IMG/VR virus record: IMGVR_UViG_3300046411_000678
Span: 1 to 30,376 of that record
Length of the DNA stretch: 30,376 nt
From: a virus
Direction: 5' to 3' (one strand)
Part shown: positions 9,666 through 28,477 of the stretch, one piece after another
Position numbering within the stretch: the first letter of the stretch is position 1
Layout: the number at the start of each line of letters is the position of its first letter
The notes under the pieces: generated by a model
Databases searched by the model: none
Seen by the model: the letters and a program-made list of their open reading frames with translations, nothing else
Told to the model about the DNA's origin: nothing
Translations under genes and position numbers: made by a program

Positions 9666-9919
9666 TATTTCTCAAATAACTTACTCCACTTTTTTAATTT
9701 ATGAAGTTTCTCTTGTTCTCTATCTTTTAAACCGGCTTCGTTAATTAATCCACGTTGTATTAAAACTTGAATGAGGCAGTATACATCACCTGCCTCATCC
9801 TGTAAGTTTTGATGGTATTTTTTCTTACCATCACTGCGTATCATTTTACTACATGCCTGCACTAGTTCTCCACATTCTTCCATTGTTATTACTAGTGCTT
9901 CTATGTCTTTACTCTTCAT
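9665..9919 (-). CDS. mazG: MazG-like nucleotide pyrophosphohydrolase
   Basis: An 84-aa all-helical protein. The metal-binding signature of the MazG/all-alpha NTP pyrophosphatase superfamily is visible: MEECGEL (E14, E15, E18) and DEAGDVY (E42, D45). Members hydrolyse (d)NTPs to monophosphates; phage versions are thought to adjust nucleotide pools during infection. The length is that of a single minimal domain rather than the two-domain E. coli MazG. It overlaps the upstream lipoprotein gene by 11 bp and abuts the DNA methyltransferase, so all three should share one transcript. Confidence 0.82.
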   Translation of the reverse strand: MKSKDIEALVITMEECGELVQACSKMIRSDGKKKYHQNLQDEAGDVYCLIQVLIQRGLINEAGLKDREQEKLHKLKKWSKLFEK

Positions 9920-11618
9920 TGCCGTACCATATGTTTATGAATCCAGACTTGTTTTCAAATGCACTTGCAGTAACACCAGCCTCATACATCCAGTCGTGTA
10001 ACTGAGGAACAACTACGCCTGTGTGCCATTGTATTACATCCATAACACCATCGCCATTCATATCTGCAAAGAAACTATCTGCTTCTAGATCCAAACATAT
10101 ATTGTTCTCATCACATATTGTATATCCTGCTATGCTAGGTAAATCGTTTGTACTGGTCTGAACCAATTTACCAGTTTGGTCGTTCAACCAAAGTAAAGGC
10201 AACGTATCGTGTCCCCAACCATTAGCAGTGAACCAATCCATGTAGCCATCACCATTAACGTCAATGGCTTGCTTTAATACACCGCCTCCTGGTGTGAGGT
10301 CTGTGTCAAAAGGAGACTCAACCCATTCAAGCCTTCCTGAATTAAACTCAAACATTGTCATAATAGTTGCTTCGTAAAATTCAGTATCACAATCATACGT
10401 TGCATTAGGGTCGTATTCCTCACCATATGGCAGAGTCTTTGTAGCTGCCATTGCAAGTAATACTGGCTGACTGTCTGGTGTTGGGTACCATATCTCAAAG
10501 TGGTCCCAAGCAAATCCACCAAAGTAGGGTCGATCATTGTGGAATACAATTTCTCGTCGACCGCACCATTGGTCTTCACCTTGACCCCAATCAATCCACT
10601 CTTTGTTATCATATACATTCCAGTAATCTAGTTGTGTAGGAGCACCACCATTAAGTTGGTATAATGCAATACCAGCACCATCTCCTGCTACTGCATAGTC
10701 AACGTTAATAGACTTTGTTGTACCAAAAGGAGTATCATTAAAAGAATCAATTGCCTGAATATAATCATGATTACCCATATTGTATTTTACAGAGTCGTCA
10801 TAGTACTCTTGTGAAACATCAACAAATTCTTCGCCATCTTGTCTGAATGCCATAGGCATATCATTAAGCGGATCCATATCCCAATAAGTATATAATATAT
10901 CCCAATTATAATTCATATTAGGAATACCTATTACACCTTGTGCCCAAATAGGCTCACCAAGCTCTTTCATTTCATACTTGCCATCCAAATTAGGTACAAG
11001 TATACCTTGCTTAGAAACAAGGTTGCTCATATCAGATTTATACTTACGTTGAAAGTCATCTCTACTAACAACATAACTGATTAACGGTAATCCGCCATTG
11101 GGGTTTTCTAGTGGTGTAAAGAATCCTGCTACACCACCAAATTGTTCGCCGCCAAGTTCCATGTCATTTTTACCAAATAGACTTTGGTTATCCACGGCAT
11201 AGCCGCCACCTGGTTGACTAACTAGTGCCAACATTGTATTGCGGAAAGGTAGCTCGTGTTCAACTTGATCTCCTGGCCAATCAACATCAGGGTCACCACA
11301 CAACACAAACATCAGCATGTCCAACTGACTGTCGTTGTTTAAGTCTAATGTGATAACATGTTGTATATTAGATAAAGTACAATAGTCAATATCTAATTGT
11401 GCAACTGCATCTGTGATGCCTACATCAGGCTCAGTGTTATATCCAATATCACTGCCGGGCATTGTATGAGGATATGTTGGCGATGGTGGTGGTGTTGGAT
11501 TCAATGGTTGTAGTCCTACTGCTGGAGATGTGCCACCGCCACCGCCACAGCCTACAACTAGAATAATGCAAGTAGTTTGCAATAAAGTTCTAAATAGTTC
11601 CACTTTGTTTACTCCCAT
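9909..11618 (-). CDS. Secreted lipoprotein with FG-GAP/VCBS-type repeats
   Basis: A 569-aa protein with a clear lipoprotein signal: short n-region, hydrophobic core TLLQTTCIILVV and lipobox VVGC with C24, followed by a Gly run and a Pro-rich linker (to about 52). The rest looks like a beta-propeller. Calcium-loop repeats are seen as LDLNNDSQLD (91-100), IDVNGDGYMD (about 451-460) and ADMNGDGVMD (about 517-526), with many Trp/Tyr/Asp residues. Such domains mediate surface binding in bacterial proteins. The likely location is the host envelope or outer membrane. An alternative GTG start at 11603 has a better Shine-Dalgarno (GGGAG) and would still keep the signal peptide. It is first in a unit with the MazG-like protein and the DNA methyltransferase, behind a consensus promoter. 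Confidence 0.85.
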   Translation of the reverse strand: MGVNKVELFRTLLQTTCIILVVGCGGGGGTSPAVGLQPLNPTPPPSPTYPHTMPGSDIGYNTEPDVGITDAVAQLDIDYCTLSNIQHVITLDLNNDSQLDMLMFVLCGDPDVDWPGDQVEHELPFRNTMLALVSQPGGGYAVDNQSLFGKNDMELGGEQFGGVAGFFTPLENPNGGLPLISYVVSRDDFQRKYKSDMSNLVSKQGILVPNLDGKYEMKELGEPIWAQGVIGIPNMNYNWDILYTYWDMDPLNDMPMAFRQDGEEFVDVSQEYYDDSVKYNMGNHDYIQAIDSFNDTPFGTTKSINVDYAVAGDGAGIALYQLNGGAPTQLDYWNVYDNKEWIDWGQGEDQWCGRREIVFHNDRPYFGGFAWDHFEIWYPTPDSQPVLLAMAATKTLPYGEEYDPNATYDCDTEFYEATIMTMFEFNSGRLEWVESPFDTDLTPGGGVLKQAIDVNGDGYMDWFTANGWGHDTLPLLWLNDQTGKLVQTSTNDLPSIAGYTICDENNICLDLEADSFFADMNGDGVMDVIQWHTGVVVPQLHDWMYEAGVTASAFENKSGFINIWYGNEE

Positions 11619-11696: not shown

Positions 11697-12332
11697 TTAG
11701 CCGCTAAATGTGGCTTTAATTGCTAGTTGAGTGAGGTTAAAGTTACAACTAATGCTATATCTTACACTATTTCCTACAACAGGACTAGTATAATGTGATA
11801 AAGTAGACGGAAATATGTACATTTCTCCTTCTTCTGGTTGTACTGTTATTTGTGTTTTTCCAAATCCATTTGGTGATGCTTCACCGTATCGAAAATGTAA
11901 TTGTCCTAACTGATCTTCATCTTTGTTATTTGTAAAATGTTCTGCACTATTATCGAGCGATATTTTTGGGAATATAACACATACCAAATCCGTACCAGGA
12001 TAATGTACATGTGGAGGATTATACTCTAGTGCAATCTGCTTGTTATACCATGCATTTGTTAATTCTAAACAATCAACTCCATGTAATAATGCATTGTTGT
12101 AAAAACCACAGTCTACCATCAAGTACGATTCCATGTTCTGATGTATTGTTTGATAAACATCTAATGGTTTTAGTTGTTCAACAATATAGTATTCTTCTCT
12201 GAGGTAGCCTACGAGATTTGGATTAGCCTTGTGATCATTTGGCTTGCAAATATTGTATAAACTTTGTGTATCTTCATCGCTGAGATTATACTTTACAATT
12301 TTTGGTCCAAATCCCCCAAGTACTTCCATCAT
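11697..12332 (-). CDS. Putative 2-oxoglutarate/Fe(II)-dependent oxygenase
   Basis: A 211-aa protein with a double-stranded beta-helix pattern. NPPHVHYPGTDLVCVIF (about 105-121) supplies a candidate HxH metal pair (H108, H110), and IFPSTLSHYTSPV (about 173-185) supplies the distal His (H180); R191 in SVRYSIS would bind 2-oxoglutarate. The classical motif is HxD...H, so HxH is a variant. Phages often carry such proteins; possible substrates include proteins, nucleic acids or small molecules, and nothing here decides. The ATG overlaps the thyX stop as ATGA, and the gene is the last of the long uvsW-led run. Confidence 0.72.
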   Translation of the reverse strand: MMEVLGGFGPKIVKYNLSDEDTQSLYNICKPNDHKANPNLVGYLREEYYIVEQLKPLDVYQTIHQNMESYLMVDCGFYNNALLHGVDCLELTNAWYNKQIALEYNPPHVHYPGTDLVCVIFPKISLDNSAEHFTNNKDEDQLGQLHFRYGEASPNGFGKTQITVQPEEGEMYIFPSTLSHYTSPVVGNSVRYSISCNFNLTQLAIKATFSG

Positions 12333-14918: not shown

Positions 14919-15360
14919 CGTATCCGTGTGCTACTGCTAATTCTTTTAGTTCCTGTTTGCTATTAATTTTTAACATTAATTCTACCTCATCACTTTTTAT
15001 ATGAGGGTATAAGTCAGAAATAAAATTACTAACTTTGTCTTTTTTCTTCCTTGCATTAGGTGGTTTCAAATAAGGATGAAACTGTATTTTGCCAACGCCA
15101 CATGCACTTAACAATAACCATTGAAGTTCTGGATGTTTGCTAACTTCCATAAAGTCTTTGTTAACAAGTTCATTTGTCATGTAAATATAGTGTGCGGCAT
15201 CTTTGCCTTGTACACTGCTAGAGTAACGCATCATCATCCATGCACTAAAGGCTTTCTTTTGTTCAGACGTCAGTCTATTATAAAACTTCCTATCTTTTTT
15301 GTCAAGAGCAGACATAACATCTTTTAAAGGTATTGCTGGTGCTTTTTTAGCCATTATCAT
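14884..15360 (-). CDS. Conserved phage protein, unknown function
   Basis: A 158-aa soluble protein. Helical segments (KDRKFYNRLTSEQKKAFSAW, about 22-41) are followed by PELQWLLLSACGVGKIQFHP (about 77-96) and a lysine-rich linker. The GVGK string is not in a P-loop context. ATGs at 15360 and 15354 are both possible; an AGGTAA site 4-10 nt upstream serves either. It overlaps the upstream FkbM gene by 14 bp and the downstream zinc-finger gene by 35 bp, so the pair is probably functionally linked. I recall this pair in other marine T4-like phages. Confidence 0.75.
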   Translation of the reverse strand: MIMAKKAPAIPLKDVMSALDKKDRKFYNRLTSEQKKAFSAWMMMRYSSSVQGKDAAHYIYMTNELVNKDFMEVSKHPELQWLLLSACGVGKIQFHPYLKPPNARKKKDKVSNFISDLYPHIKSDEVELMLKINSKQELKELAVAHGYDDKTIKDIFGK

Positions 15361-15904
15361 TTACCTGTGTATATTTATATAGTGCATTTGCTTTTTCATT
15401 GCCTATAAGATTGAAGCCATTAGACACCAGTAATTCATTACATGCATCACCTTCAATAAGAATATAGTCTATTTTATATTTGTCAAAAGGAAAAACTGAT
15501 AGTACTTCATGTTCGCTACCTTCTAAGTCTATTTTTAAAAACGTTATTTCGTTGATATTGTTTTCATCTAAAATTGTTTCAAGTTTTTTACACTCTACTC
15601 TTTTAGTTTTCATGTATGGTGATGCAAAAATATCTATGTTTGGAAAAACTGCTTGAGCCTTAGACATATACAAATTTTCTTTGACGCCGCTATAAAACTT
15701 TAAGTCAGGGTGTACATTTCCTAAGTCATAAAAATCAACATATCCATCATAACTGTATACTGCATAATTTATTCTAGCATCAACATGTATGCCTTTCCAA
15801 CCAGCATCTTCAAACTTTTTAGTTTCTGCTCTTTCTTCTGAACAACCTAAATCAACATAAAAACCAGTGGCATTTTTCTTTAAGATTTCCTCTAACACTA
15901 CCAC
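15347..15904 (-). CDS. FkbM-family SAM-dependent methyltransferase
   Basis: A 185-aa protein. The SAM motif I is FYVDLGCS (15-22) and the family-defining segment FLKIDLEGSEHEVL (122-135) is clear. FkbM-type enzymes usually O-methylate sugars or small molecules; in phages they are often suspected of altering glycans or other surface polymers. The domain is compact and complete. It overlaps the 85-aa gene by 7 bp upstream and the 158-aa gene by 14 bp downstream, and lies just after the SAM-supply genes metK-apt-mtnN. Confidence 0.88.
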   Translation of the reverse strand: MVVLEEILKKNATGFYVDLGCSEERAETKKFEDAGWKGIHVDARINYAVYSYDGYVDFYDLGNVHPDLKFYSGVKENLYMSKAQAVFPNIDIFASPYMKTKRVECKKLETILDENNINEITFLKIDLEGSEHEVLSVFPFDKYKIDYILIEGDACNELLVSNGFNLIGNEKANALYKYTQVNDNG

Positions 15905-16155
15905 TTCTCCAAGTTAACACCGCGAGTATTGAATGTTCCTTTTGGTTTTGATTTTGTGTGGTCAAAAGGGACAGATACTGAATATGGATCTCTTAGACCT
16001 TTACCTATCCATTTAAACTTGTCGTAAACTGTAGAAGGGTTTACATGATCAAAATATCTTATTACCCATGTATCTTGCTTTTCTGCGTATGCTTCGACTT
16101 CTTCATATGTACCATAAACCAATTCTTCATTATCTAATTTTGCTAGTTCTATCAT
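15898..16155 (-). CDS. Small protein of unknown function
   Basis: An 85-aa soluble protein rich in aromatic and charged residues (TWVIRYFDHVNPSTVYDKFK in the centre), with no cysteines, membrane segment or recognised motif. I do not recognise the family. Its start overlaps the MTA/SAH nucleosidase stop (ATGA) and its end overlaps the FkbM start, so it is tightly coupled to both. That position makes it a candidate partner of either enzyme, which is inference. Confidence 0.7.
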   Translation of the reverse strand: MIELAKLDNEELVYGTYEEVEAYAEKQDTWVIRYFDHVNPSTVYDKFKWIGKGLRDPYSVSVPFDHTKSKPKGTFNTRGVNLEKW

Positions 16156-16673
16156 TTGTCATTGTAAATTTTAATAAAATGTTCTTCGCCTTTAGCGACG
16201 TTTTCTAACCAACTTGTATCTGCAGAATCATCTGCACTATCACTAACATACTTATAGCATTTAAACTCGACGTGTGCTAGTTTACAGGCTTTAGCAATAG
16301 CAAAAGCCTCCATATCAACTACATGAGCAGGGTGTTCTAAGTTAGGGTCTGTAACAAAGTTGTCTCCTGTGCTACAAGTATAACCAACACCCATTGATAT
16401 TGTAATTGGGTCTTTTGGTAACATTAGTTCTAATGCTTCTGGACATTTGCCTTTATCACGTTCTACGAAGTTTACCATTTCGTGGCAACCATGATCTAAT
16501 TTGATTCCACCTGCTGTACCAAAGTTCCAAACAGTATCTGGTTTATATTTTTGTATTAATTTTGCTGCTGTGATAGCGGCATTAATTTTGCCTACACCCG
16601 TAAAGAATACATTATCCCACTTAGCCATGTTAGGTGCTTCATTTTCTAATGCAATCAAAATGATGTCTTTCAT
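16152..16673 (-). CDS. mtnN: MTA/SAH nucleosidase-like purine nucleosidase
   Basis: A 173-aa member of the PNP/UDP phosphorylase-nucleosidase superfamily. Bacterial MTAN hydrolyses methylthioadenosine and S-adenosylhomocysteine, releasing adenine. Key positions agree with E. coli MTAN: E12 in ALENEAP, FGTAGGI (51-57), VDMEAFAIA (119-127) with ribose-binding E122, and YVSDSAD (142-148) with the base-protonating Asp (D145). It is about 60 residues shorter than the E. coli enzyme, with middle loops reduced, so another nucleoside substrate is possible. It follows apt directly, which could turn the released adenine into AMP. Confidence 0.85.
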   Translation of the reverse strand: MKDIILIALENEAPNMAKWDNVFFTGVGKINAAITAAKLIQKYKPDTVWNFGTAGGIKLDHGCHEMVNFVERDKGKCPEALELMLPKDPITISMGVGYTCSTGDNFVTDPNLEHPAHVVDMEAFAIAKACKLAHVEFKCYKYVSDSADDSADTSWLENVAKGEEHFIKIYNDK

Positions 16674-17207
16674 TTATTCTCCTTCGTATTCCAGTAGATA
16701 TTCTACATTATATCCTGCTTCTCTTATTATAGCACTTCCTCCTAGATCGGGCAAGTCTATAATTGCAACAATTAATATATCTTCTTTAGGAATATTAAAA
16801 TTTTCGTGTACAAGATCTGCACATGCCATTGCAGTACCGCCTGTGGCAATAAGATCGTCTACGATAACAACTTTACCTGTTATAGGTGAAAGTTTTTGTA
16901 TGTGTATTTCTGTTTCACCATATTCTAACTTAAATGCTTTGCTATAAGTTGGATGTGGAAGTTTGCTTGGCTTTCTTGCTAATATAAAGGGTAGGTCAAA
17001 TTTGGTTGCAACAGGTGCACCAAAAACAAATCCTCTACTTTCAATACCAACAACAGTATTAGCATCAAATCTTGCTGTTGCTACAGACAATCTAGTTATT
17101 GTATGATTGAATGCTTCAGCATTGTCAGTGATGCTTGTGATATCCCTAAATTGTATTCCTGGTATAGGATAGTCGGATACCGTTCTTATAATTTTTTTAA
17201 GATCCAT
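16674..17207 (-). CDS. apt: Adenine phosphoribosyltransferase Apt
   Basis: This enzyme converts adenine and PRPP to AMP. The PRPP-binding motif VVIVDDLIATGGTA is at residues 113-126 when counted from the ATG at 17207. The N-terminal DYPIPGIQFRDIT and GIESRGFVFGAP match the Apt family, and length (177 aa) is normal. An upstream in-frame start at 17264 would add 19 atypical residues lying inside metK, so 17207 is preferred; it leaves an 11-bp overlap with metK. Together with MetK upstream and the nucleosidase downstream it forms a SAM/adenine recycling set. Confidence 0.93.
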   Translation of the reverse strand: MDLKKIIRTVSDYPIPGIQFRDITSITDNAEAFNHTITRLSVATARFDANTVVGIESRGFVFGAPVATKFDLPFILARKPSKLPHPTYSKAFKLEYGETEIHIQKLSPITGKVVIVDDLIATGGTAMACADLVHENFNIPKEDILIVAIIDLPDLGGSAIIREAGYNVEYLLEYEGE

Positions 17208-18306
17208 AATATAAAAATAAATTTGTTTTTTCCCAAGGGAGTTCTGGTTTACCAAAATGTCCATAGTTTGTGGTGTTGGTTAAATCTAAACCAAACAACT
17301 CAAACCTATCAATAATACCTTTTGGTGTTAAGTCAACTTGCTGTTGAAGTTCATATGCTAAGTCTTGTCTTACTACACCATCAGCATAGACATAAACACT
17401 AGTTGGTTCTACAACACCTATTGCATAACTTAGTTGTACTGTGGCATTCTTTGCTTGTCCAGATGCTACAATGTTCTTTGCCAAATATCGTGCCATATAT
17501 GCTGCTGATCTATCGACTTTAGTGCAATCTTTACCTGAAAAAGCACCGCCGCCATGTGGAGCATACCCGCCATAAGTATCCACAATAATTTTTCGTCCAG
17601 TAAGTCCTGTATCTCCATCTGGTCCTCCAATTACAAATCTACCTGTTGGGTTAATTAAAAATTCAGTGTCTGTTAAGTCAAATTCATCGGATAGTTCATC
17701 AACAATAATTTGTTCAACACTATCACGTACAGCCTGTATACTCATATCATCACTATGTTGTGTACTGCATACAATCTTTGTGATACCTGTTGGAGTATTC
17801 ACATCATCATACGACATAGTCACTTGCGACTTACTGTCAGGCCCAAGCCATGATTCTCCATTACGTCTTTCATGTGCAAGTCTGCGTAATATTTTATGGC
17901 TGTAGTATATAGCACTTGGCATATATTCTGGCGTTTCATCACAAGCATAGCCGAACATAAGCCCTTGATCACCTGCACCAAATTCGTCTGTACCTAATGC
18001 TATGTCTGAACTTTGTCCATGTAATTCATTGTAGACTTTTAAACTAGCCCAATGAAAACCATCTTGCTCGTATCCTATATCTTTTACAATGTCTCTTACT
18101 ATGTTTTCAATATGCTGTTTATCAAACTTGTTGCTTTTGTATTCGCCGGCTAATGTAACCATATTAGTTGTTACTAATGTTTCTACTGCGGCTCTGTGAT
18201 TTAGTTTTCCATCTATTAGAAATGTTGCAACTGCATCAGATATCTGATCAGCAATCTTGTCTGGGTGTCCTTCAGAGACACTTTCACTAGTGAATTCATA
18301 TGCCAT
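17197..18306 (-). CDS. metK: S-adenosylmethionine synthetase MetK
   Basis: A 369-aa enzyme making SAM from methionine and ATP. Family signatures are intact: SEGHPDK (11-17) with H14 and D16, the GAGDQG motif (110-115), SKSQVT (158-163) with the phosphate-binding Lys, GGPDGDTGLTGRK (227-239) and the P-loop-like GGGAFSGKD (252-260) followed by KVDRS. Length is close to the bacterial norm (about 383). A Shine-Dalgarno-like GGATGAG precedes the ATG at 18306. A complete metK is uncommon in phages as far as I know. It lies between an APS-kinase-like gene and apt. Confidence 0.97.
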   Translation of the reverse strand: MAYEFTSESVSEGHPDKIADQISDAVATFLIDGKLNHRAAVETLVTTNMVTLAGEYKSNKFDKQHIENIVRDIVKDIGYEQDGFHWASLKVYNELHGQSSDIALGTDEFGAGDQGLMFGYACDETPEYMPSAIYYSHKILRRLAHERRNGESWLGPDSKSQVTMSYDDVNTPTGITKIVCSTQHSDDMSIQAVRDSVEQIIVDELSDEFDLTDTEFLINPTGRFVIGGPDGDTGLTGRKIIVDTYGGYAPHGGGAFSGKDCTKVDRSAAYMARYLAKNIVASGQAKNATVQLSYAIGVVEPTSVYVYADGVVRQDLAYELQQQVDLTPKGIIDRFELFGLDLTNTTNYGHFGKPELPWEKTNLFLYYGS

Positions 18307-19543: not shown

Positions 19544-20037
19544 AAAATATCTCCAAAGTCTAAGTCTTTTATTTTATTAATCTCTTTTACAAACAAGGCA
19601 CACTTAGGCTCTGGTTTGTTTTCAAGTGGCACAACTAATATATGCCCATTCTTCAATCTAGGAAAGTACCATTTTACATCTTGATAAACATTAGTAATTT
19701 GTATTTCTTCGTTATCTGGTATACCATTCCTTAATGGATTAAAGACTGGTGTTACAAAACCTCTATTGTTTAAACTTGCGAGTGGAATAACTTCGAGACT
19801 TCCAAAATCTTCATCGCTTGTTAATATACTCCAATCCATTGGCATTTGCACTTGATATTCGCCTATAGTAAGACAAATTGCAGGTGCATGAAAACTCTCA
19901 AGAAATATGAGAGGTAAAAAGAAGTAATCCATATATTCCGGATCACTTGTATCGAATACACAATACCTGAGATCTTCAACCTCTTCAGGCACTGTATCAA
20001 GTTCGTAAACACTATTGTCTACTGTTAGTATTTTCAT
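19540..20037 (-). CDS. Conserved T4-like phage protein downstream of uvsW
   Basis: A 165-aa soluble protein of mixed alpha/beta character with many Pro and acidic residues. Segments such as DTVPEEVEDLRYCVFDTSDP (about 14-33), VQMPMDWSIL (about 63-72) and VYQDVKWYFPRLKNGH (about 118-133) are ones I recall as conserved in marine T4-like phages, with no known role. It starts within the uvsW stop (ATGA) and its own stop overlaps the acidic gene start, so it is likely co-translated with UvsW and could be a partner of it. Confidence 0.78.
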   Translation of the reverse strand: MKILTVDNSVYELDTVPEEVEDLRYCVFDTSDPEYMDYFFLPLIFLESFHAPAICLTIGEYQVQMPMDWSILTSDEDFGSLEVIPLASLNNRGFVTPVFNPLRNGIPDNEEIQITNVYQDVKWYFPRLKNGHILVVPLENKPEPKCALFVKEINKIKDLDFGDIL

Positions 20038-21491
20038 TTATACTCCACTTTAGTTACTGAGAATCTAAACTGCTGCTCTTTATAAAACTGCTTCCTCTTA
20101 GTTAGATGTCTCTTACTATACTTTAGATTGCTTGTTAAGTCAATCACTTTTAGATAATCTTTATCCTCTGCTTTTCTAATACCTCTACCAATGCTTTGTA
20201 TTACACGAACAAAACTCTTACCTGGCTCTAAGAGAACAAGATTAAATATCCTCGGTATATTGATGCCGACTGCCGCTACTCCATAGGTTGCAACGATAAC
20301 TTTATTATTCGTTTCAGATACATCAGCATACTCTTCTTGTCTATCACTAGTTTTCATTTTACCACTAATAAACACCCAATCGTCATTTTTCTCTGCCAGC
20401 ATTTCGCCTGTTTTAATTCTGTCTATCAAAACCAATGTGTTACCTGTTTGTGCTAGTCCATTGACGATACTGCTTATTTGATCAATTCTTGTTGGGTCTG
20501 TAACAAGCCATTTTAATTCTTGTGCATAGCTGCCGAAGCCTAATGCACCATCTTGTAATTGAAAAATATCAATGTCCAAGTCTGCAAGAACGCCCATGTC
20601 CTGTAATTCTTTACTGCTTAAATTTCCTACAACATTACCTAAACAACATGTACAAGCCACCGCTTCATGCTCGTCTTTTGGTATTGTTCCAGTTAATCCC
20701 CATCTTATAGGAACGTTAGCAAATACACCGCTTAAAAGGTCTCTAAGTACTTCTGCTTTGGCTTTATGTACCTCATCTACCATTACGCATGAAACTCCCT
20801 CTAGGAATTCATCAATGGGAAAGTCTGCTTCATAGTTTTTGCTTTTCTTTTCTAGCACACTTAAACTTTGCCATGTGCATATTGTATGAGTTTTATCATA
20901 TTCTTTTCTATCACCAAACAACACACCAACATCAAGGCCCAAATTCTTGTAGTCCCTTTCGGTTTGTACAACCAAGTCTTTGTTTGGTACAATAACAATG
21001 GTACGACCATATTTCTCGCACTTCTGACTGAGTACAGCAGTAATTAAAGTTTTGCCTGCACCAGTTGCTATTTCTTGTAGTGCTTGTGGATTTTTCAAGA
21101 AGTTGTTTATTACGTCAACTTGATAGTCGCGTAGGATAATGGGTGTGCCTTCAACTGGATGACCTTTTGGCCATGCTATGTGATCATAATCAGTTGCTGT
21201 TACATCATCAAATGAAATGTCAAAATGTTGCCTAAAATCTTGTACCTCTATTTGGTACCCACTGTTTGTGACAAGCGGCAGTAATTTATCTAATAAATTA
21301 AGATATGTTCTACCGCCTATGTCACAAAATCTAACGCAACCATCCCATCTCCCTAATTTGTATGCTGGCATATGATATGCATAAGGGAGAAAGTATTTGG
21401 CTTCGTCGGAAATCTTTCGACGAGTTTTAACGTCAAGTCCAACAAACTTAACGTTAACCTCGTCTCTTATTTCCAGTGTGGTTTTTGGCAT
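20034..21491 (-). CDS. uvsW: UvsW-type ATP-dependent DNA helicase
   Basis: A 485-aa SF2 helicase. T4 UvsW unwinds branched DNA and R-loops and helps switch from origin- to recombination-dependent replication. The N-terminal domain (KLGRWDGCVRFCDIGGRTYL, 45-64) is typical of UvsW. Walker A is ATGAGKT (142-148), the DEAH-type box is DEVH (239-242), motif III is LTGT, and motif VI is IQSIGRGIRKA near 430-440. Length matches T4 UvsW (about 500 aa). The ATG lies 6 nt beyond a perfect -10 box with no room for a Shine-Dalgarno, so translation is probably leaderless. It is first in the long run down to 11697. Confidence 0.95.
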   Translation of the reverse strand: MPKTTLEIRDEVNVKFVGLDVKTRRKISDEAKYFLPYAYHMPAYKLGRWDGCVRFCDIGGRTYLNLLDKLLPLVTNSGYQIEVQDFRQHFDISFDDVTATDYDHIAWPKGHPVEGTPIILRDYQVDVINNFLKNPQALQEIATGAGKTLITAVLSQKCEKYGRTIVIVPNKDLVVQTERDYKNLGLDVGVLFGDRKEYDKTHTICTWQSLSVLEKKSKNYEADFPIDEFLEGVSCVMVDEVHKAKAEVLRDLLSGVFANVPIRWGLTGTIPKDEHEAVACTCCLGNVVGNLSSKELQDMGVLADLDIDIFQLQDGALGFGSYAQELKWLVTDPTRIDQISSIVNGLAQTGNTLVLIDRIKTGEMLAEKNDDWVFISGKMKTSDRQEEYADVSETNNKVIVATYGVAAVGINIPRIFNLVLLEPGKSFVRVIQSIGRGIRKAEDKDYLKVIDLTSNLKYSKRHLTKRKQFYKEQQFRFSVTKVEYK

Positions 21492-21496
21492 ACTGT

Positions 21497-21525
21497 ATTA
21501 TACCTTATCTGTACTGTAAAGTCAA
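21497..21525 (-). promoter_or_regulatory. Consensus sigma-70 promoter for uvsW, inside the 3' end of the TonB receptor gene
   Basis: On the minus strand TTGACT (21520-21525) and TATAAT (21497-21502) are 17 bp apart. The -35 and spacer overlap the last codons of the receptor gene. The expected +1 coincides with the A of the uvsW ATG (21491). Confidence 0.88.
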
Positions 21526-23127
21526 CAATACTTTACGTCCACCAACATCATAGCCTGGTAAAATTTCAGTTACATCATCAAGCAAATCTTGTACCGTCAA
21601 TGAAAGCTCAAACTTGTCTGATACTTTTCTTGATATTACAAAATCAAAAGACGATACATCTTCTAATGATGGGCCGTCCCATGGACCAGGCTCTCTTTCA
21701 AACTGGCCTCTCCATCTAAGTTCTGTGGTTGTATTACCGAATGATGCAAAATAAGCAAGGCTACCCATATACTCTGGCACTCTAGGTTGATCAGTGTCTG
21801 TGTATCCTGCTTTCAATCTTAGAGCTCCATATGGTACAACAAAGTTGTGCTTGATTCTAAGACCTTTTGTAGTGTACTCACCTGTGTTTACATACTGACT
21901 TATAGAACCATCATAGTCAATGTTCTGATCGAAGTCATATGCAAAAAGTGATACACCAAAGTAACCAATTTCGATACCCATACCTTCTTCTGGTTCTAAG
22001 TTAGGGTTTGGTTGTACCCATGAGTCGCCATACTGTTGGTATAGTGTAGGATTTCTATAACTTGTACTAAAGTTAGTAAAGAAGCCATCAACTGCATAGC
22101 CTACACGATAAACTCTCGCATCTTCACTTAAACGTGTACCTACTTGAAATCTATCTTGAAAGTTAAGTGTTGCATAACCACTGAGGTTAGTTTGGTCTTC
22201 TCCGGCATACTCTTCTTTGTCGAATGTAATACCTGCTATTAATTTTGCAGCCGGGTAACCTATATCAAAAGATTCTCTAGCATCAAAGTAATAACGTTTT
22301 GCTTCACTTTCATAAGTGCTAACACCTTCTGTGAAGTATTCGCTGTCAGAAGAACTGTATCCAAGTGTGAACATATCATTTCTAACACTTATATCTGTCT
22401 TTTCACCTGACTGTAAACAATCATTAGACTGCGACCAATCTGCTCCGTAGCAATTATCATAATCATAATCATAATCAGTACGCGACATTGCAACAGTTAC
22501 TCCATAGAACTCTTTTACTGCCTTAACAGTAGTGTTCTTGTAATCATCTTCTTCTGTGTTGTCATTCCTAACACTATCGTTAGATACATCAAATGATGTA
22601 ATACTGATAGCATCTAATAATGCAACATTTATAAGAGTATGGTCAGAACCTGCTCTTATTACTGCTTGGTTTGAAATCTCATCATTGATAAAGACAGTGC
22701 CACCTAGGCTACCAGAGCCATATAGTACACCGTTAGGTCCAGATACAACTTTAACATTTTCTAATCCAGTAACAACATCATGACCGAAATCATACCAACC
22801 TGCACCAGCATCATTCACCGGTACGCCATTCTTATACACTGTAGTGTGTACGGTTTGTGTGCCACGTTCATTGTACAACGCTGCCCCGCCGTATCCACCA
22901 GATGTAAAAGACATTGCTGGCATTAGTGTTTCAATTATTGTGAGATCCTGTGATACTTCTGTTGCATCCTGCATCTCTGAACTACCAACTACTACAATCT
23001 CTTCAATAAGATCATCACTTTCCTCTTCCGCTTTAACTTCAGTAGCACATACCATTAGTAGCATAAAAACTACTGTAGCATATAACGGGCTAAAGTTTAA
23101 GTGAAAGTTCTTTCTAAAGTCATTCAT
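21505..23127 (-). CDS. TonB-dependent outer-membrane receptor (BtuB-like)
   Basis: A 540-aa protein with an N-terminal signal peptide (hydrophobic core about 17-27, likely cleavage after VKA at 33). A TonB box EEIVVVGS (42-49) is followed by a plug domain: NGVPVNDAGAGWYDFG (100-115) and GVLYGSGSLGGTVF (133-146). Many alternating aromatic/polar strands then make the barrel, and NPNLEPEEG (about 376) is the usual conserved periplasmic-turn motif. The family imports vitamin B12, siderophores or sugars using TonB energy. It is shorter than BtuB (614 aa). The C-terminus ends in LTLQYR rather than an aromatic residue. A strong Shine-Dalgarno (AAGGAG) precedes the ATG. A terminator lies just upstream, and I see no consensus promoter after it. 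Confidence 0.93.
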   Translation of the reverse strand: MNDFRKNFHLNFSPLYATVVFMLLMVCATEVKAEEESDDLIEEIVVVGSSEMQDATEVSQDLTIIETLMPAMSFTSGGYGGAALYNERGTQTVHTTVYKNGVPVNDAGAGWYDFGHDVVTGLENVKVVSGPNGVLYGSGSLGGTVFINDEISNQAVIRAGSDHTLINVALLDAISITSFDVSNDSVRNDNTEEDDYKNTTVKAVKEFYGVTVAMSRTDYDYDYDNCYGADWSQSNDCLQSGEKTDISVRNDMFTLGYSSSDSEYFTEGVSTYESEAKRYYFDARESFDIGYPAAKLIAGITFDKEEYAGEDQTNLSGYATLNFQDRFQVGTRLSEDARVYRVGYAVDGFFTNFSTSYRNPTLYQQYGDSWVQPNPNLEPEEGMGIEIGYFGVSLFAYDFDQNIDYDGSISQYVNTGEYTTKGLRIKHNFVVPYGALRLKAGYTDTDQPRVPEYMGSLAYFASFGNTTTELRWRGQFEREPGPWDGPSLEDVSSFDFVISRKVSDKFELSLTVQDLLDDVTEILPGYDVGGRKVLLTLQYR

Positions 23128-23151
23128 TTTTTCTCCTTGTTATAATGAATT

Positions 23152-23185
23152 AAAAAAGACACACTCCCCTTATTGGGAGTGTGTC
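23152..23185 (-). terminator. Rho-independent terminator after the AAA+ ATPase gene
   Basis: A perfect 11-bp stem (23158-23168 with 23175-23185) with a 6-nt loop is followed on the minus strand by six T's. It ends transcription from the AAA+ gene and insulates the TonB receptor gene. Confidence 0.92.
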
Positions 23186-23221: not shown

Positions 23222-24250
23222 TTAAAATATTACACGTTTCATACAAGTGCTCTCGGCCAATGCTTTCCATGTGTCGGGAGACATTTGTTTTAGGTCTGCA
23301 ATTTTTAGAACCATTCTCAATGAAATCTCCCTAAGCCTTGCTGACTTCTCAACCATGAAGTCCACTACTTCTTGATTACCTTCGTCACCGAATTTGTATT
23401 CACTAAGCATACCATCTCCAACGATCTGGTTGATTCTTAGGAACCTGTCCCTAACTGAATCCATCTCTAGATCCATGTAGTGACACCTTGACATCAATGC
23501 ACTAAGGTGATCTTTAATCTTTTTACTACGAACATTTTCGAAGTTCACGTTAGTAATAAAGATACATCCACCTGCAAAGTCAAACCTATCAGGTATACCT
23601 TCTCTACGCAATGCCGCTGACTCTGACTTCCAAGAAATAGTTCTCTTCTTACCTGAGTCTAAAACAGCCTTCAACATGTTCAAACAAACTTCGTCAAACA
23701 ATATGCTATCACAGTCATCAAACACAAGGATATCACCTTTGTTTGAATTGTTAAACAATGTTTGGTACAAACCAATTGGTGTCATTGAACCTTTAACTAC
23801 TTCAGTTCTTGGTGGACGACCAGCAAGTTTAGTTTCTGCATCGTACATATCAAGAATAGTCTCAACTCCATATGACTTACCAACTCCTGGAGGGCCACTT
23901 ACAATAAGTCCTCTAACAACACCGTTAGCCACAGCGTCAGTCATCTGATCAAGAATGTCGAATCTTTCACGTATTCTAACAATCGCTTCTTCGTCAGTTT
24001 CTTTCTTCTCAGGCTTTGCTTCGGGTGAAGCAGTTACCTCGACATTTGCTTCGTCTTCGATAGGCTCAACACTTGCCAAAGTTGGCACTACAACACGGAT
24101 AGAAGTTCTTTCTGAACCTAATAATGCTGATGCATCTACAGTCACAAAATATCCTTTCTTACCTTGCTGAGTTGGTTTAATCAAAGGAAACACTCCTTCG
24201 ATCGGCTGGTTGCGGTATATACCGTCTTTTATTTTTACAAAGTTTGTCAT
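23222..24250 (-). CDS. AAA+ ATPase of marine T4-like phages
   Basis: A 342-aa protein. Residues 1-60 form a small beta-rich domain, and 63-90 an acidic/Lys linker. The AAA+ core has Walker A GPPGVGKS (119-126), Walker B ILVFDDCD (174-181) and a sensor-I-like FITNVN (about 241-246). It differs from the clamp loader gp44. I recall relatives in marine phages annotated only as ATPase. A remodelling role in replication or packaging is possible. It has its own consensus promoter and a Shine-Dalgarno (GGAGG) about 9 nt before the ATG, and it ends at a strong terminator, so it is a single-gene unit. Confidence 0.85.
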   Translation of the reverse strand: MTNFVKIKDGIYRNQPIEGVFPLIKPTQQGKKGYFVTVDASALLGSERTSIRVVVPTLASVEPIEDEANVEVTASPEAKPEKKETDEEAIVRIRERFDILDQMTDAVANGVVRGLIVSGPPGVGKSYGVETILDMYDAETKLAGRPPRTEVVKGSMTPIGLYQTLFNNSNKGDILVFDDCDSILFDEVCLNMLKAVLDSGKKRTISWKSESAALRREGIPDRFDFAGGCIFITNVNFENVRSKKIKDHLSALMSRCHYMDLEMDSVRDRFLRINQIVGDGMLSEYKFGDEGNQEVVDFMVEKSARLREISLRMVLKIADLKQMSPDTWKALAESTCMKRVIF

Positions 24251-27854: not shown

Positions 27855-28454
27855 TTATTGATATGCGTTTTCTGATTGAGTGTGATCCGTCATATCTCTG
27901 ATGCCTTTTATCTCAGGAACTTTTTCTAACAGTAATTGCTCAATACCGTGTGTAAGTGTTATATCTATTGCACTACAACCTTGACATCCGCCACCAAATT
28001 CTAATACTGCTATATTATCTTCTGTTATTGTATGCAGTTTTACATTGCCGCCATGTGATGCTAACATAGGTGCCACATCATTGTACAAGTAATAATTAAC
28101 TTTTTCCTCCAACGTAGAGTCGTCATCTAACTTGGATACTCTAGAGTTGGGTGCTTTAATAGTTAATTGGCCACCAAAATTATCTTTGTCATAGTTAATT
28201 TGTGCTTCATCTAAAAACTTGATGCTATGTCTATCTATATACATATCAAAATTTTCAAAAGGCATAACTTCAGAATCACCTTTATCTACTTCTTTACAAT
28301 ACGATAGCATTGTTTCTGCGTGTGGAGTTCCTGGGTTTTCTATAGAAACTTTAATGTTACTCTTTGGACCTTTAGGGTCTTGCATGTCTACTGATTCCAA
28401 TAGTCCTTGCAAAAAGTCTATTGCACTATCTGTAACTTCTATATTAATATCCAT
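27855..28454 (-). CDS. nfuA: Fe-S carrier NfuA (A-type-like plus NifU domain)
   Basis: A 199-aa iron-sulfur cluster carrier. The N-terminal degenerate A-type domain has IENPGTPHAETMLSYC (38-53) and QLTIKAPNSR (96-105). The NifU C-terminal domain carries the [4Fe-4S]-binding CxxC in FGGGCQGCS (C157, C160), and GIRDMTDH follows. The layout and wording match gammaproteobacterial NfuA along its length (E. coli 191 aa). The ATG at 28454, with GAGGTG just upstream, is preferred over a GTG at 28475. It has its own promoter and lies between two terminators, so it is an independent unit. A phage copy may support Fe-S enzymes during infection. Confidence 0.93.
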   Translation of the reverse strand: MDINIEVTDSAIDFLQGLLESVDMQDPKGPKSNIKVSIENPGTPHAETMLSYCKEVDKGDSEVMPFENFDMYIDRHSIKFLDEAQINYDKDNFGGQLTIKAPNSRVSKLDDDSTLEEKVNYYLYNDVAPMLASHGGNVKLHTITEDNIAVLEFGGGCQGCSAIDITLTHGIEQLLLEKVPEIKGIRDMTDHTQSENAYQ

Positions 28455-28477
28455 ATTCACCTCTATACTGTTCACAC

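Follow-up and report, generated by a model that had tools for sequence, protein, structure and literature searches.

A BtuB-like TonB-dependent transporter gene is an old core gene in the replication module of a group of probable jumbo phages

An open reading frame among the replication genes of a virus encodes a protein with the intact anatomy of a TonB-dependent transporter. The gene lies in a 30,376-base virus record (hereafter the window, meaning the whole stretch of DNA that was analysed) and belongs to a family that is an old core gene of its phage group, lost later in places. Its nearest class among known receptors is BtuB, the vitamin B12 type. The reading we narrowly favour is that the protein is a functional BtuB-like transporter, captured once, that would import a corrinoid during infection.

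The frame runs from ATG to stop, and the following parts of the gene and its product can be assigned:

21505..23127, minus strand: BtuB-like TonB-dependent transporter gene, 540 aa (open reading frame, Plug PF07715, AlphaFold model, PDB profile and fold matches to BtuB)
23029..23127, minus strand: apparent signal peptide, residues 1-33 (MNDFRKNFHLNFSPLYATVVFMLLMVCATEVKA), read from the sequence
22987..23007, minus strand: TonB box IEEIVVV, residues 41-47, read from the sequence and from its conservation
22669..22986, minus strand: Plug domain, about residues 48-153 (PF07715 at residues 44-144)
21508..22668, minus strand: predicted beta barrel of 22 strands, roughly residues 154-540 (from DSSP of the AlphaFold model, with manual pairing of strands)
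22534..22569, minus strand: loop L2 motif RNDNTEEDDYKN, with E192 and D194 in 39/39 homologues (profile alignment to BtuB)
22417..22473, minus strand: loop L3 motif YDYDYDNCYGADWSQSNDC region, with D224, C226, N235 and C237 in 39/39 homologues

A preliminary description of this DNA had named a complete signal peptide, TonB box, plug and barrel, and all four are recovered, the signal peptide as an apparent one only. Specifically, the N-terminus is hydrophobic and ends VKA|E, as judged by eye. The plug match (E 3.6e-11, 44 bits against a curated cut-off of 23.9) is the only one that Pfam returns for the protein. The AlphaFold model, built on a 39-row family alignment, has a pLDDT of 81.8 and a pTM of 0.81, and a hand count from its DSSP output gives 22 strands; the barrel is thus predicted to be complete and unbroken, where a broken one would have told against the preliminary description. 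The C-terminal residue is W or Y in 21 of the 39 homologues, and the window protein ends LTLQYR, with R in place of an aromatic residue. A C-terminal aromatic residue is a usual, although not universal, part of the outer-membrane beta-signal.

The N-termini of the homologues resemble that of the window protein in many cases and are unrelated to it in others. In L089 and L101, for instance, the mature N-terminal regions are almost identical but stand behind unrelated signal peptides (NFHxNFSPLY versus FFxKHxxKI type), as if signal modules had been exchanged within the family. The signal module that members share at the N-terminus did not turn up in other ORFs of phages.

Conservation is greatest at the energy-coupling end of the protein. 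Residue E42 of the TonB box (I41-E-E-I-V-V-V47) is identical in 39/39 homologues, the mean majority-residue fraction of residues 41-48 (0.78) is the highest among the main segments, and the plug, at 0.67, joins the TonB box as the most conserved part. This pattern favours energised transport rather than a passive decoy. Of the functions proposed in the preliminary description, nutrient import fits best, and a decoupled plug is disfavoured by the conservation. Coupling would use the TonB-ExbBD system of the host, since no phage-encoded TonB is present in any of the 11 large receptor-bearing contigs, each of which carries one receptor.

Indels concentrate in two of the predicted extracellular loops, L5 and L8, where insertions over 38 homologues add up to 177 and 488 residues. 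Such insertions suit an alternative in which a host TonB-dependent transporter that serves other phages or bacteriocins faces competition from the phage receptor or is replaced by it, or in which the phage receptor changes which virions adsorb to the infected cell, such that superinfection control matters more than import. The class itself lends this some weight, because BtuB-type proteins serve phages and colicins as receptors, E. coli BtuB being the known case. However, loops L2, L3, L7 and L9 are not hypervariable but conserved (C226 and C237 of L3 probably form a disulfide pair), and a near-invariant TonB box and plug would be needless in a decoy or blocker. We regard surface remodelling as unlikely to be the main role, while ranking it first among the alternatives; import and surface remodelling are not mutually exclusive.

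The single receptor sequence is uninformative on class, as phmmer returns the colicin I receptor (E 0.003) for the plug only. The family profile settles the matter among solved structures: in the PDB it matches BtuB with E 2e-22, and the next TonB-dependent transporter at 0.0096. It also aligns with bacterial BtuBs across 496 columns in a profile-profile comparison (E 1.5e-41). Similarly, E. coli BtuB fills ranks 1-12 of a Foldseek search with the model (E 4.5e-21 and TM 0.75 at best), ahead of Bacteroides BtuB and other receptors. Among 369 gammaproteobacterial genomes there are 17 matches at 1e-10, and a cobalamin riboswitch lies directly upstream in 13/17, compared with 0/14 generic TonB-dependent transporter loci (146 kb) that served as the control. 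The structure prediction and receptor-family search that the preliminary description had proposed for settling the class therefore point to the BtuB (B12) type rather than to a siderophore or sugar type.

The profile alignment sets the invariant E192, D194 and D224 (39/39) on BtuB D193, D195 and D230, calcium ligands of that protein. Three of the five positions of the calcium cage thus align, and D179 and D241 lack a clear counterpart in the phage receptor. In BtuB, the five-aspartate cage raises cobalamin affinity 1000-fold (PMC7360065). The calcium-site acids and an RGx4H motif had been considered as marks of BtuB only, and were dropped as too unspecific in the sample; the calcium-site acids are present in other sampled receptors too.

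Compared with BtuB (TIGR01779; E. coli 1NQG and 2GSK), the phage receptor is alike in its plug and 22-strand design, size class and TonB box, in its acidic residues at three aligned calcium-cage positions, and in that its nearest bacterial relatives are riboswitch-controlled BtuBs. It differs in its low identity (about 20%), its conserved L3 cysteine pair, its viral operon context and the long L5 and L8 insertions of some members. No cobalamin riboswitch is present in the leaders of the window and six other receptor-carrying viral loci. The score against the TIGR01779 equivalog, 62 bits, is far from the cut-off of 599.7, and we therefore call the protein BtuB-like rather than BtuB and regard its substrate as putative. 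Some riboswitch-linked bacterial BtuBs likewise fall below this cut-off, and so the shortfall blocks the name, not the likeness.

A BtuB-derived barrel could also import something else, such as a siderophore, haem, a metal chelate or a glycan. The identity to known BtuBs of only about 20-30% leaves room for this, as do the distance from the B12-receptor equivalog score and the weak second matches to haem receptor families. The phages also carry an iron-requiring class I ribonucleotide reductase and a NifU-like protein. Against these points, all strong matches in the PDB and in bacterial genomes are to BtuB, mostly under riboswitch control, and a short barrel protein of 540 aa has the size of BtuB. 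Another substrate is unlikely in our estimate, and we place it second among the alternatives to corrinoid import.

The preliminary description had set the gene amid T4-type replication genes, and its coordinates prove exact. On the minus strand, the neighbours run in the order gp32, UvsX, UvsY, an AAA protein, the receptor and UvsW, and the surrounding T4-type genes also include a DnaB-like helicase and a Toprim primase. Two neighbours are conserved:

23222..24250, minus strand: AAA ATPase, upstream neighbour (phrog_1250, E 5.7e-83)
20034..21491, minus strand: UvsW-type helicase, downstream neighbour (phrog_16, E 1.4e-71)

TonB receptors are abundant in bacteria and nearly absent from phage records, which would suit a chimeric assembly or a bacterial gene lately acquired by one phage, the former being what the preliminary description had said would refute it. 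That description had also suggested looking for the gene in related phage contigs. A scan with the receptor found 119 relatives, of which the best 80 were kept (36-86% identity), and in 80/80 of these the receptor has the AAA gene, uvsW or both beside it in the same orientation, within the reach of each contig. The same junction in 80 independent viral contigs rules out chimeric assembly or contamination, and synteny with phage replication genes in these relatives marks the receptor as virus-encoded. The receptor gene has about 38% GC, like its neighbours, and the viral receptors form a single fully supported clade apart from all bacterial ones sampled. Chimera and recent cargo together retain an almost negligible probability.

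A second scan, anchored on UvsW and independent of the receptor, yielded 80 contigs. The receptor is present in 70 of them and absent from eight; L109 has a different ORF in its place, and the upstream stretch of L126 is too short for a verdict. UvsW proteins of the receptor-less phages, five distinct sequences, group with full support in a single clade inside the receptor-bearing phages, which points to gene loss. In two contigs, L127 and L128, the promoters, the ribosome-binding site and a stub (MNKMFTFAATMLLAF) are retained ahead of a deletion, and the stub is the signal peptide of the intact receptor genes in L074, L076 and L078. We read this scar as a second, recent loss. The synteny in receptor contigs, the nested loss clade and the scar together identify an old core gene with later losses.

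The scar regions (L127:3039-3529 and L128:5510-6000) also contain a duplicated promoter-like sequence and a small ORF after the stub. In L109 (IMGVR_UViG_3300021368_001755), which is closely related to the window, the receptor slot upstream of uvsW contains an unrelated ORF (L109:1-640), perhaps a replacement. The nearest matches to the UvsX protein of the window come from phages of about 350-490 kb, with 66.6% identity for Sinorhizobium phage Phosso, and related contigs reach 250 kb; the carriers, a large uncultured group, are therefore probably jumbo phages. In Phosso itself, the interval between UvsY and UvsW contains three unrelated ORFs and no receptor.

Signals for expression of the receptor and of the gene that follows it can be read around the frame:

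23158..23185, minus strand: intrinsic terminator hairpin separating the receptor gene from the AAA gene (11-bp stem and T-run)
23133..23138, minus strand: Shine-Dalgarno sequence AAGGAG, 5 nt ahead of the receptor start codon, read from the sequence
21497..21525, minus strand: sigma70-like uvsW promoter TTGACT-17-TATAAT, overlapping the receptor 3' end (11/12 consensus bases; a consensus match only)

The 101-nt receptor leader has a fold z-score of -4.4. In the window there is no good sigma70 -35 box between the terminator and the receptor; many relatives have at this place a TTGAC(A/T)-16-TATAAT promoter, again a consensus match only. The commonest distance from receptor stop to uvsW start is 11 nt.

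Across ten pairs, receptor dN/dS is 0.07-0.18 and that of the neighbours mostly 0.01-0.1, which shows clear, if somewhat relaxed, purifying selection on the receptor. Several close pairs differ far more in the receptor than in its flanks, at silent sites too. Between L009 and L010, the flanking bins are mostly 96-100% identical (90% in the gene-adjoining bin) and the receptor 72-92%, with a dS of 0.72 in the receptor and 0.03-0.19 in the neighbours; some of the larger dS values are near saturation and allow a loose reading only. Raised silent divergence with sharp borders suggests that receptor alleles are swapped by recombination. Exchange of this kind is typical of biotic-conflict genes and so would also suit surface remodelling, but it is also expected if the protein must fit the host or the corrinoid type. 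A more elaborate proposal is that a corrinoid importer serves as a core replication-module gene of a probable jumbo-phage clade, and that its alleles are swapped as cassettes because one protein both feeds the cell and sets its exposure to phage and bacteriocin attack. We give this version little credence, less than either alternative to corrinoid import discussed above.

Under the corrinoid-import reading, a phage ancestor would have taken a BtuB-like gene once from a bacterium and held it at one locus. Which bacteria might have supplied it? The sister of the viral clade in both receptor trees, which have moderate support and long branches, is the BtuB of a small-genome gammaproteobacterial order (support 96 SH-aLRT and 84/84). 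Seven BtuB loci fetched from this order have 29-39% GC, and a full-length dsrA in 47/83 of its genomes suggests SUP05/Thioglobus-like bacteria. A YD-C...NDC-like loop L3 motif occurs in some riboswitch-linked BtuBs of the dsrA-bearing order as well. The AU test leaves a placement beside the Cycloclasticus BtuBs standing (p 0.097), and a donor among dsrA-bearing, SUP05-like bacteria, and with it the host, is offered as a lead only. SAR86 is rejected as donor, there being no match at 1e-10 in the 151 genomes of its order.

During infection, the receptor would be exported through the host Sec and Bam machinery to the outer membrane. There the TonB box would link it to the TonB-ExbBD of the host, and the imported substrate would be B12 or a related corrinoid. 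The likely benefit would be a continued supply of cofactor for host and phage enzymes, chiefly in the methionine/SAM cycle, despite the shutdown of host gene expression. In a host that relies on MetH, the supply of methionine needs B12. The window also encodes methyltransferases and three genes of related metabolism:

17197..18306, minus strand: MetK, S-adenosylmethionine synthetase (PF00438, PF02772, PF02773)
16152..16673, minus strand: phosphorylase-superfamily protein, possibly an MTA/SAH nucleosidase (PF01048, E 4e-14)
16674..17264, minus strand: phosphoribosyltransferase, APRT-like, putatively adenine-specific (PF00156, E 2.1e-10)

Together with the methyltransferases, these genes resemble a set for SAM use and salvage. 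A strict linkage of receptor and metK is not supported: metK is kept in receptor-less phages, and a receptor-bearing sister clade has no metK nearby. Radical SAM proteins with a B12-binding domain are encoded in 2/11 receptor-bearing contigs (L287:58-1908 and L288:1-2184, both minus strand), and that of L287 has one weak match only among 50,697 phage records; isolated phages seldom carry such proteins. A B12-dependent class II ribonucleotide reductase was rejected as a reason for B12 uptake. The phage enzyme is class I, with a small subunit in nine of the ten contigs that have the large subunit, the tenth being truncated by the end of its contig. In sum, intact anatomy, purifying selection, BtuB class, aligned calcium acids, SAM-related genes and radical SAM proteins were counted for corrinoid import, and the missed equivalog, the lack of a viral riboswitch, the class I reductase, the loose metK link, the presence of the calcium acids in other receptors and the terminal R against it.

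Other genes of the window were noted as well. A 569-aa exported lipoprotein with lipobox VVGC and FG-GAP repeats (9909-11618, minus strand) was found, in a scan with the protein, in eight other viral contigs only. Its candidacy as a BtuG-like partner is unsupported; it survives in L109 without an adjoining receptor, and its model has a pLDDT of 53. An FkbM-type methyltransferase and a 2OG-Fe(II) oxygenase (15347-15904 and 11697-12332, both minus strand) lie near ThyX and MetK. One protein (27855-28475, minus strand) joins Fe-S_biosyn (A-type) and NifU domains and would be a phage iron-sulphur cluster carrier.

The rarity of phage TonB receptors, asserted in the preliminary description, is borne out by tblastn over the same 50,697 phage records, which gives distant matches only (22-36% identity), mostly bacterial receptor genes filed as phages. 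No close homologue is present in the records of isolated phages. An 'autotransporter' annotation beside the terminase of Agrobacterium phage Atu_ph07 (L161:1231-3465, plus strand) receives no support from Pfam.

In the open literature searched (few subscription journals, no preprints), a single precedent in phages emerges: megaphage Mar_Mega_1 and LR745206 encode a TonB-dependent receptor, SusC, described as a putative auxiliary metabolic gene with no conserved locus (PMC9723777). This SusC is comparable in being a TonB-dependent receptor in a very large marine phage, but belongs to another family: BFVD entry A0A8D9FQQ5, which we infer from its name to be the Mar_Mega_1 protein, is an 805-aa SusC-type receptor with 11% identity over the fold match. 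Within the literature covered, no phage clade appears to have been reported with a BtuB-like receptor among its conserved core genes.

Other phage genes have been connected with B12 or with TonB-dependent receptors. Marine-phage cobS and other cobalamin-related auxiliary genes have been proposed to touch B12 supply; CobS acts in cytoplasmic cobalamin synthesis, whereas the BtuB-like receptor would act in uptake at the outer membrane. Llp of phage T5, a small lipoprotein, blocks host FhuA to bring about superinfection exclusion. Both Llp and the present protein are phage products tied to TonB-dependent receptors at the host outer membrane, but Llp blocks a host receptor and the BtuB-like protein is itself a full one.

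Host-helping phage genes usually act in the cytoplasm. The family described here would be a new class of phage-carried nutrient-uptake gene, one for the outer membrane, and is kept as a core gene. It offers dozens of natural alleles, a clade without the gene and a deletion scar for comparison. Sea water contains little vitamin B12, a compound that many marine bacteria are unable to make. If these phages do maintain a conserved outer-membrane active transporter of single origin, then they would control vitamin uptake across the cell envelope. Because proteins of this class are the attachment point of many phages and colicins, one gene could link nutrition with superinfection, and the phages that carry it probably either keep vitamin uptake going in the infected cell or remodel its surface.
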